Assembly (NCBI RefSeq): GCF_003335675.1
Contig: NZ_QPHL01000014.1
Coordinates: 1-64,000, forward strand
Origin: Winogradskyella sp. KYW1333
GTDB taxonomy: Bacteria; Bacteroidota; Bacteroidia; Flavobacteriales; Flavobacteriaceae
Direction of reading: 5' to 3'
DNA: 64,000 bases
A program made the translations under genes and the position numbers. Shown in pieces: positions 46,483 to 53,736 of this stretch. Each line of letters opens with the position of its first letter. Positions within the stretch are counted from its first letter, which is position 1. The notes beneath the pieces were generated by a model. That model worked only from the letters and a program-made list of their open reading frames with translations, did no database searches and had not been told where the DNA came from.

Positions 46483-47154
46483 TCATTGTTTGTTAAAATC
46501 AGTGCTCGATTGGTTAATGTATTTACCAACAACAATTGCTGTCAATATTACTAAATAGAATTGTCCTATTAACCCAATAAACATAGAAGCTTTTTGAGCT
46601 AAATCTGTTATTGGCAAAATATCACCGTATCCTATTGTCATTAATGTTATATAAGCAAAGTACATTAATTGTTCAGATTTGCTAGGACTAATAGCAGAAG
46701 TTTCAATACCTGAAAACGAACCAGGGTTAAGAATTTCTATTGTTAAACATAAAAAAAAAGATAGTAGTCCTAAAGAAATATAACCGCTTATTAAACCCAG
46801 AATAACATTTTTACTAACAACTTGCGCCTTCCAGACTTGGCGCATTATTTCTAGCGTTACCAACGCATAAAAAATAAAATAAAGTCCTAGCCTGATATTA
46901 TTTAAACTATTTTCTTCTTCTAAATATTCAAAAACAACAAAACCCAACGCTAATATCGCGAGAGCAAACAAGATTCTTGTTAAGTTTTTAGATTTTGAAA
47001 CAAGTAACAAACCAAAACATAAATTTAGCAATAGTAATGTAGGTAAAATAAAATTTTCGAACCATACAGAGGGTATAAATAAAGATCCAAATAACACTGC
47101 AAGTTGAGTTATAAGAAATAATTCAAATCTGTATGGATAAAATTTATTAAGCAT
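46483..47154 (-). CDS. Potassium channel-like protein (single pore domain)
   Basis: A 223-residue membrane protein: four or five N-terminal hydrophobic segments, then a pore unit (residues ~120-215). The selectivity filter TIGYGD (173-178) is in YFAYITLMTIGYGDILP, followed by a last helix LIGQFYLVILTAIVVGKYI. No cytoplasmic RCK/TrkA-N domain is present. It starts 6 bases after the RND pump stop and is almost certainly co-transcribed with the efflux genes, an unexpected partnership. Confidence 0.8.
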   Translation of the reverse strand: MLNKFYPYRFELFLITQLAVLFGSLFIPSVWFENFILPTLLLLNLCFGLLLVSKSKNLTRILFALAILALGFVVFEYLEEENSLNNIRLGLYFIFYALVTLEIMRQVWKAQVVSKNVILGLISGYISLGLLSFFLCLTIEILNPGSFSGIETSAISPSKSEQLMYFAYITLMTIGYGDILPITDLAQKASMFIGLIGQFYLVILTAIVVGKYINQSSTDFNKQ

Positions 47155-50283: not shown

Positions 50284-51372
50284 TTAATTAAGTTTAACTT
50301 CTTGTCCATCAAGGAGCGTTTGTAATCCTGCAGTAGCAATCTTTTGTCCAATTTGTAATCCAGATACCACTTCAAATCCTTCAGGAGTCAAATTACCAAT
50401 GGTTATTGGTTGTTTGTTTACGGTTGTCATTTCATCAGATTCCTCAATTATAAAAACAAATCTACCATTACCATCTTCACCGACTGCATTAGCTGGGACA
50501 ACCATTGTTTTTTTGTCTAGTGATTCAGAAACAAACTCAAAATTAACCGATGCTGCCATACCACTCTTGATGCGATCATCTCTATCTGTAACCATTACAG
50601 TTACAGGATAAGTCGACGTATTTTGATCAACTGCAGGTGCCACTTCTGTAACAACTGCATTGAAGTTTTCTTCTGGAATTGCTGTAAAAGATACCCTTAC
50701 CTTCATGTCCTTCTTAACTGCATTGATCACAGATTCTGGTAAACCTAATGAAATCTCAATGGCACTACCCGCATTTAACACACCTATGGTTTGTCCTGGT
50801 GAGACATTTTCATCTACTTCTGCACTAACAGAAGCGATGACACCATCTTCTGGCGCATACAAGTATCCAAATCTTATTTGATCTTGCTGAATTGCAACAC
50901 TACGTTTAGAAGATTCAAAGCTTGCAACAGCAGTTCTATAGGAGTTTTTTGCATCCTCATAATCGCTTAAAGATGAACTTCCTTTTTCATAGAGTGTTCT
51001 TACCCTGTTTAAAGCTAGTTTGGCAGTATTCATTTGAGACTCTGAACTATTTTTAGACTCTATTGCAGACTCATAATTTAATCTAGCAGAAACGTTATCC
51101 AAAGTTCCAAGCAAATCATTTTTTCTTACTTTTTGGCCTAATTTCATGTCTAGTTTTGTAACAATCCCACTACTTCTAAAACTAAGATTTATAATTTTTT
51201 CCGTTTTTGCGGTTCCACTAAAACTTCTAGATTTATCACCTCCAACATAACCGACTTCACTATATCTAACTGGCCTTAATACAACCTCTTCTTTAACTTC
51301 ATTTTCTCCACAACTTAGTAGAAAACAAAATATAAAAAGGCTACTAACTTTAAAAATACGATTGATTATCAT
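50284..51372 (-). CDS. RND efflux periplasmic adaptor (membrane fusion lipoprotein)
   Basis: A 362-residue lipoprotein (lipobox FLLSC, Cys21). It has the HlyD/AcrA pattern: a first half-lipoyl segment with GIVTKLDMKLGQKVRKNDLLGTLD, an alpha-hairpin (~95-165), the second half-lipoyl GYLYAPEDGVIASVSAEVDENVSPGQ, and beta-barrel and membrane-proximal domains ending QIGQKIATAGLQTLLDGQEVKLN. It bridges the RND pump and the outer-membrane component. It starts 21 bases after the TolC fusion gene stop. Confidence 0.92.
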   Translation of the reverse strand: MIINRIFKVSSLFIFCFLLSCGENEVKEEVVLRPVRYSEVGYVGGDKSRSFSGTAKTEKIINLSFRSSGIVTKLDMKLGQKVRKNDLLGTLDNVSARLNYESAIESKNSSESQMNTAKLALNRVRTLYEKGSSSLSDYEDAKNSYRTAVASFESSKRSVAIQQDQIRFGYLYAPEDGVIASVSAEVDENVSPGQTIGVLNAGSAIEISLGLPESVINAVKKDMKVRVSFTAIPEENFNAVVTEVAPAVDQNTSTYPVTVMVTDRDDRIKSGMAASVNFEFVSESLDKKTMVVPANAVGEDGNGRFVFIIEESDEMTTVNKQPITIGNLTPEGFEVVSGLQIGQKIATAGLQTLLDGQEVKLN

Positions 51373-51393: not shown

Positions 51394-53736
51394 TTAGTCT
51401 TCGTTATTATTTAAAAATTCCAAAAATCGTTGAGCAAATGCCTCACGTTCAGATTGATCTTGCAACAAAAAGAAAAGCCCAAGTGAACGCTCGAGTTGCA
51501 TGGCACTCTGTAAATAGTTGTAAGTTGCATTTGCACTAGCCAATTGTGCTTGCAAATAGTTATTTTGGGCATCTAATAATTGTACAATATTAACTGCACC
51601 ATTGGCATAAGAAGTCTGAGTTAAATCAAGCGCTTCTTTTGCTGTATCTTCAAAAAGTTTGGATAACTCTATATTTGAAATTTGATTAACGAGTTCTATA
51701 ACAGAATCATTGATATTCTTTTCAATATTAAGTTCAATATTTTCTTTAGAAATTTCCAGTTGTTCCTTTTGAATCGAAGCAATTTGTTGGTTTAAATTTT
51801 GTTTGTTCTGATTAAATATTGGTATTGAGACATTTAATCCCAAGTTATAATAGCCTTCCGGTATTGAAGGAAAACCAGTTGGAAAATCTACGCCAGCACC
51901 CGATCTTGAAAACTCATAGTAGTATTGGCCTTGAAGGGCTACAGTAGGCAAAAATCGGCCCGCTCCATATAGACGTTCACTTCTTTCTGTGGCTTCAATA
52001 TTGTATTGCAATGCCTTAAGTTCAGGTGCATTATATATTGCTTCTTGAACTAAAAAATCCACGAATGGTTTTCTTAAGGTTGGGTCATCTAAAAACTGTC
52101 CCAGTTGCTCATAATTATAATTACTGAAAATTCCCTTTTTCAACTCAGCTTCATCAACGTCAATATCTGTATCAATAGGGTTATTTAGTAGCTGATTCAA
52201 GGTATAATAGCCTTGTTCTAACTGATTTATTGCTTCTATCAGTTGTTGCGTGTTTTGAGCCATTTCTGAGCGAAATCTCAACACATCAGATTTACCAGAC
52301 TGTCCAGCTTCATAATTTTCAGTAGCTATCCTTAGGTTATATTTTGTTAGTTCAAGATTCTTACTTTGAATAGCCAAATTTGACTTTAAAATTAAAGTGG
52401 TAAAATAGGCCGTCGCTACGTTTAAAATGACATTCAATGCTTCACTGTTATAATTTTCTTTCTGTGCTTCGCGCAAAGATTTCTGAATGCTAATATTGGC
52501 ATTTGCTGATTCAGAGAATACAGTTTGTTGCAAAGTGACGTTACTAGAAGTAGTAATCTCTGGATTTTGACCATTACTTACAGTTGCTAATTCTGGATCT
52601 ACATAAGAACCTGTGGCACCTGCAGAAACATTCGGTAAATAATCACTTTTTGCAATTTGTACATCCTTTTCTGTAAGGGTAATATCTCTACTCAAGGTTT
52701 GCAAATCCAAGTTCTTGGCAATTGCTTCTTGCAAAACACCTACAAGGTTATAGTTTTTCTCAGCAACTTTGAGCTTAGGATCACCAATAAAAGTAGTTGT
52801 AGCTATTAAACTATATTTAATTGGTAAATCGATTTTTTGTGCAGTATTGTAATTAATTGTAAGACTAAGTTTAGAATCTATTTTGGTACCCACACCAGAA
52901 AGTTCATCACCAGTAACAATAGATTCTATGGTCAAGGCAATTTTTCTAAAAAACTGATTCAGGCCTGACTGATCATAGTTACTTGCTAAGATTCCATTCT
53001 TTACATCCTTTTCTGGATTAGCAGAAAACGAAGGAATTTTTCGTTCAATTAATTCTTTCGCCAAATTTGCAATCTCTTCATCTGACAAATAAAATCCTCC
53101 AGCGAGATAAAGACCACCTAATCCATCTAACTGTAAAATAATATCATTTAATGACGTGAAAGGAAGTAATTTTATTTCTATACCTAACTCCTCACCTATC
53201 TTTATAAAAGTATCTTCAATTCTTAAATCGTCTACAAATGGTTGTTCAACTGCTATTCCAATCTTTTCGGGTTTTGCTAATTCCTTAAATACACTTAAAT
53301 CCTTTTTAAAAGAATGAGTTGTAGTAATTGAAATGAAATTTGGTATCTCATTTAGTGTTTCTTCATTGGCTATCAATTCTTCACTTAAAGTTCCAAAAAC
53401 AATGGTTGGTTTGGGAAACGAACTGTTCCTTGTTATAATTAAGTTGTTGATTTTTCCAAATGCTACAATTATATCCGCGTCATTATTAATTAGTTGATTA
53501 TAATTAATTATTGCCTGATCTGTACTAAAGTTATTTACAAGCCTATATTCCGTTGGAAATTCCATAATTGCATCTTCACCAACTACTGCAGAAATCTCAC
53601 TTGAAAGATCATCCAAAAGAGCTTCGATTTCAACAGAAGATTTTTCCAACAGGTAACCAATTTTGTATGTCTTTGATTGTGAATATGCATTTATGGTCAC
53701 AAAAAATGCAAATAAAATAACGAAGTAATTACGCAT
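51394..53736 (-). CDS. Outer-membrane efflux protein fused to an N-terminal substrate-binding-protein-like domain
   Basis: 780 residues, far longer than ordinary TolC-family proteins (about 430-490). After a signal peptide (1-19), residues ~24-310 resemble the ABC_sub_bind periplasmic binding fold: KIGYLLE, NNDADIIVAFGKINNLI, PKPTIVFGTLSEEL, EKIGIAVEQPFVDDL, SNYDQSGLNQFFRKIALTIESI, and the C-terminal LSLTINYNTAQKIDLPIKYS. Residues ~329-775 are a normal OEP/TolC barrel with coiled-coil repeats (NLVGVLQEAIAKN ... SYANGAVNIVQLLDAQNNYLQAQ). It is the first gene of the operon, before adaptor, RND pump and channel. No ABC ATPase or permease is nearby. Confidence 0.85.
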   Translation of the reverse strand: MRNYFVILFAFFVTINAYSQSKTYKIGYLLEKSSVEIEALLDDLSSEISAVVGEDAIMEFPTEYRLVNNFSTDQAIINYNQLINNDADIIVAFGKINNLIITRNSSFPKPTIVFGTLSEELIANEETLNEIPNFISITTTHSFKKDLSVFKELAKPEKIGIAVEQPFVDDLRIEDTFIKIGEELGIEIKLLPFTSLNDIILQLDGLGGLYLAGGFYLSDEEIANLAKELIERKIPSFSANPEKDVKNGILASNYDQSGLNQFFRKIALTIESIVTGDELSGVGTKIDSKLSLTINYNTAQKIDLPIKYSLIATTTFIGDPKLKVAEKNYNLVGVLQEAIAKNLDLQTLSRDITLTEKDVQIAKSDYLPNVSAGATGSYVDPELATVSNGQNPEITTSSNVTLQQTVFSESANANISIQKSLREAQKENYNSEALNVILNVATAYFTTLILKSNLAIQSKNLELTKYNLRIATENYEAGQSGKSDVLRFRSEMAQNTQQLIEAINQLEQGYYTLNQLLNNPIDTDIDVDEAELKKGIFSNYNYEQLGQFLDDPTLRKPFVDFLVQEAIYNAPELKALQYNIEATERSERLYGAGRFLPTVALQGQYYYEFSRSGAGVDFPTGFPSIPEGYYNLGLNVSIPIFNQNKQNLNQQIASIQKEQLEISKENIELNIEKNINDSVIELVNQISNIELSKLFEDTAKEALDLTQTSYANGAVNIVQLLDAQNNYLQAQLASANATYNYLQSAMQLERSLGLFFLLQDQSEREAFAQRFLEFLNNNED

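Follow-up and report, generated by a model that had tools for sequence, protein, structure and literature searches.

A TolC-type efflux channel joined to a domain derived from nutrient-binding proteins in the marine bacterium Winogradskyella sp. KYW1333

The window analysed here, a stretch of 64,000 nucleotides from the marine bacterium Winogradskyella sp. KYW1333 (contig NZ_QPHL01000014.1), contains on its minus strand a single open reading frame of 780 amino acids, with an ATG start and free of internal stops, in which a signal sequence, a domain of the periplasmic binding-protein type and a TolC-family outer-membrane channel follow one another (Table 1). This is the order of parts that the initial annotation of this DNA had proposed. 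The signal sequence lacks a lipobox, because no cysteine is present in residues 1-20. The gene is followed 21 bp further on by that of a periplasmic adaptor, which is separated by 9 bp from an RND permease gene, and 6 bp lie between the latter and an ion-channel-like gene; the flanks of this operon resemble, judged by translation, a peptidase and a universal-stress protein. On the best reading, the fusion protein serves a tripartite RND efflux pump as its outer-membrane factor and has partners of its own. Its N-terminal domain is not a displaced importer subunit: the operon carries no gene for an ABC importer permease or ATPase, having the adaptor, RND and ion-channel-like genes instead, and the genome has no PF04392 match at E <= 0.001. 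The earlier statement that ABC importer genes are absent nearby thus holds for the operon.

Table 1 Location of the fusion gene, its parts and its neighbours in the window, and of DUF6268 genes in other loci
Feature	Location	Strand	Basis
Fusion gene, 780 aa	51394..53736	-	Single open reading frame
Signal sequence, residues 1-20	53677..53736	-	Read from the sequence; putative cleavage site
ABC_sub_bind/TrpX-type (class I) periplasmic binding-protein domain, residues 24-312	52801..53667	-	Profile matches to 3lkv/6hni/3lft; AF2 model with fold match Z 22.8; PF04392 matches in some relatives
Linker, residues 313-328	52753..52800	-	Gap separating both domain matches
TolC-family outer-membrane channel, two OEP repeats, residues 329-753	51478..52752	-	Pfam OEP; TIGR01844; PDB TolC matches
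Periplasmic adaptor (MFP/HlyD), 362 aa, lipobox-like LLSC near N-terminus	50284..51372	-	TIGR01730 RND_mfp, 223.7 bits vs cut-off 94.9; Pfam HlyD_D23
RND permease (ACR_tran), 1037 aa	47161..50274	-	PF00873, E 2.5e-162
Ion-channel-like gene, 223 aa, TIGYGD filter motif	46483..47154	-	Pfam Ion_trans_2, E 4.7e-9
DUF6268 genes	L057 4470-5381; L058 8505-9446; L059 3346-4314; L060 6817-7740; L064 11066-11977		Pfam in four, own profile in five

The channel half was readily recognized. Pfam OEP (PF02321) matched two stretches with 207.1 bits against a cut-off of 22 (E 2.6e-61), and TIGR01844 spanned the same half with a score under its own cut-off. The channel half also matched TolC structures in the PDB, with Foldseek returning 7ng8 at E 6.3e-14 and TMt 0.67 from a model whose beta part is of low confidence. 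This full-length model, of low mean confidence (pLDDT 69.7, pTM 0.48) and poor in its beta-strand regions, matched TolC and, separately, 3lft. Both the two OEP repeats and the TolC structure matches bear out the earlier proposal of a TolC-family channel behind the binding-protein domain.

The N-terminal half of the window protein had no Pfam match of its own, PF04392 included, and NCBIfam likewise names no N-terminal domain; scanned as a separate domain, it gave just a chance-level match to DUF577 (0.24). Its relatives were more informative. PF04392 matched three of the six N-terminal domains in A2, an alignment of six relatives used as a profile, at E <= 10 (best 1.9e-15), and seven of the 25 rows of alignment A3 at E <= 0.01, including row L074, which has no OEP. 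Relative to the PF04392 cut-off of 25.9, a fusion from Sulfuricurvum scored above it at 38.6 and locus L072 slightly below it at 25.4. Searched against the PDB, the A2 profile matched 3lkv (E 5.2e-8), and a wider profile matched 3lkv (5.7e-13), 6hni (1.6e-6) and 3lft (8.8e-6). An AlphaFold model of residues 21-319, built on a 23-row alignment, reached a pLDDT of 84.4 and a pTM of 0.81, and CD0873 (6hnj/6hni), 3lkv and 3lft ranked at the top of its Foldseek matches. In VIA-align it superposed on 3lkv with Z 22.8 and an rmsd of 3.6 over 283 of 296 residues, with 6hni (Z 22.3) and 3lft (Z 21.5) close behind and 281-283 residues covered across the three. The class I two-lobe fold of the TrpX type is thus present in the N-terminal domain, and the segment INYNTAQKIDLPIKYS lies at residues 294-309 of the fusion protein. 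Since these three structures are the top matches of a confident model, the initial annotation was right in calling an ABC_sub_bind-like two-lobe fold in the N-terminal 290 or so residues, on which direct Pfam searches are silent and the relatives' profiles and the model agree. The solved structures are described as holding phenylalanine (3lkv), tyrosine (6hni) and tryptophan (3lft) (PMC6816091).

We confirmed that an outer-membrane efflux channel and a domain derived from nutrient-binding proteins are combined in one protein. That two genes had been joined by an assembly error, which was raised with the first description of the gene, is almost certainly wrong: we found nothing in its favour, and the same fused frame occurs in independent genomes of many genera, named ones among them, as well as on a named complete plasmid of Sulfuricurvum. 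Among 60 relatives, the full-length fused frame was present in the window genome and six others, five of the same genus (G010, G017, G035, G026 and G007) and one of another family (G038). An ORF scan detected the fused gene, 776-814 aa long, in 29 of the 31 loci from Flavobacteriaceae; L083 lies outside that count, yet has an open frame of 801. In Tenacibaculum sp. SG-28 (L100 7956-10287) the fusion gene is broken into several frames beside open adaptor and RND genes, through either decay or sequencing error. A domain-profile search of the order gave 12 matches in 395 genomes, eight of them strong, and one of the phylum, in which the best five candidates per genome were scored, gave 19 in 395 genomes, 18 of them strong, with G621, which has no OEP fusion, among them; the weak matches of these searches (G241, G311, G331 and G117) had E-values of 2.4e-5 to 5e-4. 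Named genera with the fusion include Winogradskyella, Psychroserpens, Aquimarina, Tenacibaculum, Hyunsoonleella and Hanstruepera.

The fusion is present in three phyla. The protein on the plasmid of Sulfuricurvum kujiense is 24% identical across 96% of the query, with PF04392 and OEP both above their cut-offs. Its locus on pSULKU01 (L137 7896-15152) comprises a TetR regulator, the fusion channel, an HlyD adaptor, an RbbA-type ABC exporter and an ABC permease, so that the exporter stands in place of the RND permease and the same channel type is served by another energy source. Cetobacterium somerae (Fusobacteriota) has two plasmid-borne fusions, L138 7446-9626 (726 aa) and L139 7194-9365 (723 aa); the N-terminal domain of L138 aligned with the family profile at an hhalign probability of 95 (E 3.3e-8) with part of the binding-protein fold missing. 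Two candidates were rejected as fusions: L074 5212-8046 (G621), which matched the profile with two PF04392 copies and is the sole A3 row without OEP, and the Desulfuromonas locus L106, a tandem binding-protein frame without OEP as judged by translation. The L074 frame seems to be fused to a permease, a permease family that was listed once being taken as that of L074. As in L074, two or three ABC_sub_bind copies also occur in open frames of 950 aa (L165) and 1271 aa (L167) from other genomes of the phylum.

The channel part is a discrete family, linked strictly to the N-terminal domain in the genomes searched. A search with the barrel alone, scoring the best four candidates per genome in 395 genomes of the phylum, returned 18 matches of at least 421 bits, the next reaching 161 bits. 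Open frames of 793-1013 aa, fused and also in the domain-profile list, accounted for 17 of the 18, and the remaining match (G773) starts 136 bases from a contig end, where the locus is cut. In a tree, 27 fused barrels were separated from 13 stand-alone channels by one branch with support 100/99; as the stand-alone channels were sampled from the same order, the tree fits one origin within the sample only. In the sample tested, the binding-protein domain was apparently acquired once in this channel lineage.

Much of this linkage extends to the pump genes. With phmmer, both an adaptor and an RND gene were detected beside the fusion in 51 of 52 fused loci (the window, L026, L055-L073 and L075-L105, excluding second fetches L021-L025 and the non-fusion L074), which upholds the link of the channel to these genes noted from the window. 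The exception is L071 (G589), a fused locus with no matching adaptor or RND gene within the 15 kb read; Sulfuricurvum has its ABC exporter. RND permeases of at least 59% identity occurred in exactly 7 of the 60 relatives, the same ones that carry the fusion, and the next best reached 434 bits and 28% identity. Across the phylum, with the best two candidates per genome scored, RND matches of at least 898 bits were found in 13 of 395 genomes, of which 12 have the fusion and the thirteenth (G773) is cut by a contig start. In four genomes of family f50, the RND permease that accompanies the fusion scores 560-571 bits (31%), hardly closer than the RNDs of up to 517 bits in G731, which has no fusion match; the RND link is therefore strict only for the nearer relatives. 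Next to the fusion operon, a DUF6268 gene, possibly encoding an outer-membrane barrel, was observed in five loci outside the window's family (Table 1).

The N-terminal domain is under purifying selection, with dN/dS of 0.04-0.15 in 12 of 13 pairs (which share sequences), the thirteenth pair (L085/L102) being identical; for the channel, dN/dS was at most 0.07 in pairs with estimable dS. The residues reported to bind the ligand of Streptococcus suis TrpX are T108, A127, T129, D152 and N233 (PMC9382623). Placed on the fused rows through a HMMER alignment to 3lkv, across very distant sequences, the corresponding positions were not conserved: in the 25 rows, among which L074 was kept despite its exclusion from the fused counts, Asp was never found at the D152 position, Ala at the A127 position in five and Thr at the T108 position in two.

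Conservation of the loops lining the cleft, which like those opposite were assigned from strand topology rather than coordinates, was 0.683 against a mean of 0.689 in 23 Flavobacteriaceae fusions and 0.427 against 0.482 in 20 fusions from across the phylum. In 16 stand-alone ABC_sub_bind controls it was 0.768 against 0.696, a value reached by 0.3% of random sets. The controls were canonical PF04392 proteins picked by score, with overall conservation similar to that of the fusions; 17 of 32 rows, single-domain and near full length, were chosen, to the exclusion of multi-domain rows, partial rows and the weak row L180, and 16 were used as L188 was empty. The result was stable to one-residue shifts and to removal of Gly/Pro columns. 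Four of the eight cleft loops exceeded the mean by +0.05 to +0.09 in Flavobacteriaceae, so a lineage-specific ligand is possible, and together with the topology-based loops and the canonical control this means that the cleft test weakens the idea of a ligand without excluding it. The loops of the opposite face were more conserved in the phylum set (0.569 against 0.482). This excess weakened at shift -1 (p 0.07), and the control showed the same at shift +1 (p 0.01); being sensitive to the loop borders and shared by the control, it is of little value as a sign of a docking face.

As far as these alignments go, the pocket of the N-terminal domain no longer looks fit for a shared nutrient. The initial annotation had envisaged ligand capture by the domain, coupled to gating or loading of the duct. 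Our data do not support this, in that the TrpX ligand residues are not conserved, the cleft shows no excess conservation, unlike the control, and one Cetobacterium copy lacks part of the fold. Ligand-dependent regulation of the channel nonetheless keeps some probability.

The TolC fold has its N-terminus on the outer side of the duct, at the level of the equatorial ring. Three N-terminal domains attached there would ring the channel, in the gap between the peptidoglycan and the outer membrane, and loading of the duct from this position is unlikely. We propose that the domain is a repurposed one of the TrpX/ABC_sub_bind type that would have lost the conserved ligand pocket of its family, and that three copies may surround the TolC trimer near the equatorial ring, at the place where the lipoprotein YbjP binds in Escherichia coli. 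The domains would then be a built-in accessory that could orient, anchor or stabilise both the channel and the contact it makes with its own adaptor, and could thereby favour the adaptor and transporter that belong to it. We would give an even chance to such a role, perhaps YbjP-like, at this predicted placement. An accessory role explains the strict link to one channel family and a fixed domain with a variable pocket. It also accounts for the shorter Cetobacterium domain and for the pairing with an ABC exporter in Sulfuricurvum, a partner that fits a role on the channel side. The description of the YbjP complex with TolC is consistent with an N-terminal position outside the duct (PMC13082787), yet the same report has YbjP dispensable for efflux under laboratory conditions, which counts against the accessory reading.

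Other roles have to be weighed against this one. A channel that responds to a ligand, in which the N-terminal domain binds a lineage-specific small molecule and its closing alters how the TolC duct opens or assembles, is a less probable contender, at about half the weight of the accessory role. It would account for the intact two-lobe fold, the purifying selection and the mild conservation of some cleft loops in Flavobacteriaceae, and binding proteins that switch ligands would be expected to vary in the cleft across the phylum as well. The cleft, however, shows no excess conservation even inside one family, where the control differs, the known TrpX ligand residues are not kept, and the Cetobacterium copy does without part of the fold. 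A bolder version, in which these proteins would form a class of TolC-type channels that are regulated on their outer side by three attached binding-protein domains and answer to a different periplasmic ligand in each lineage, and hence a ligand-gated efflux duct driven by RND or ABC transporters, we regard as rather improbable.

Hand-over of a pump substrate is less probable still. Periplasmic metal chaperones of the CusF/SilB type serve related pumps, and a domain that takes the substrate in the periplasm and passes it to the adaptor or transporter in their manner would agree with the co-occurrence of the nearer RND relatives with the fusion; the attachment near the middle of the channel is, however, away from the entry sites of RND and adaptor, the same channel type is paired with an ABC exporter in Sulfuricurvum, and the pocket is not conserved. 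We rate somewhat higher, if still as improbable, an anchor in the envelope, with the domain binding peptidoglycan or another outer-membrane protein and so fixing the pump in the wall. The DUF6268 genes that adjoin the operon in L057-L060 and L064 could encode such a partner, but a search with our own profile found them in only 5 of 61 loci, a set that includes second fetches of some genomes. Contact of the TolC equatorial ring with peptidoglycan, which would suit an anchor, has been proposed (PMC13082787).

Both halves of the protein belong to known families, and the combination can be recognized in databases, as the protein from Sulfuricurvum exceeds both Pfam cut-offs. With the TolC family of outer-membrane factors (PF02321; AcrAB-TolC) the fusion shares two OEP repeats, a TolC-like helical core and an operon with adaptor and RND, but it has about 300 extra residues N-terminal to the channel, and its channels form a family of their own, far from the stand-alone channels sampled. 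Its class I two-lobe fold is shared over nearly the full length with the ABC_sub_bind/TrpX proteins (3lft SP1069, 3lkv VC_1101, 6hni CD0873; Z 21.5-22.8), from which it differs in being joined to a channel, in the lack of an ABC importer in the operon and in its unconserved ligand residues. E. coli TolC-YbjP is described as having an extra periplasmic domain near the equatorial ring at 3:3 with TolC (PMC13082787; PMC13095208), the arrangement that we infer for the fusion; YbjP is a separate, smaller lipoprotein, whereas the fused domain is covalent and has no lipobox. Bucl8 of Burkholderia, encoded in an efflux operon, is likewise an outer-membrane factor that carries an extra region, but this region is reported to be extracellular and collagen-like (PMC7682875) and is not a binding-protein fold. 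The open-licence literature searched yielded no published description of a TolC/binding-protein fusion, and the architecture seems to be undescribed.

Together the fusions make up a widely distributed subclass of efflux channels that has its own pump genes and is annotated, in the records seen, just as 'TolC family protein' or 'ABC transporter substrate binding protein'. They show how an export machine has taken over a nutrient-binding fold, and offer a natural system for the role of accessory domains outside TolC, a question raised by the recent YbjP structures.

The ion-channel-like gene with the TIGYGD motif of K+ channels is a frequent fourth gene of the operon in Flavobacteriaceae. Among loci L075-L105 it was not found in L076, L095 and L100; in 26 of the 31 no more than about 1 kb separated it from the RND gene, and in L098 and L099 a piece of it starts about 2 kb from the RND gene, at the end of the locus. 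Further genes can stand between the RND and ion-channel genes, as seen for one with an adenylate/guanylate cyclase domain in L055 (11569-12648) and one of the PsiE family in L093 (14665-15099).
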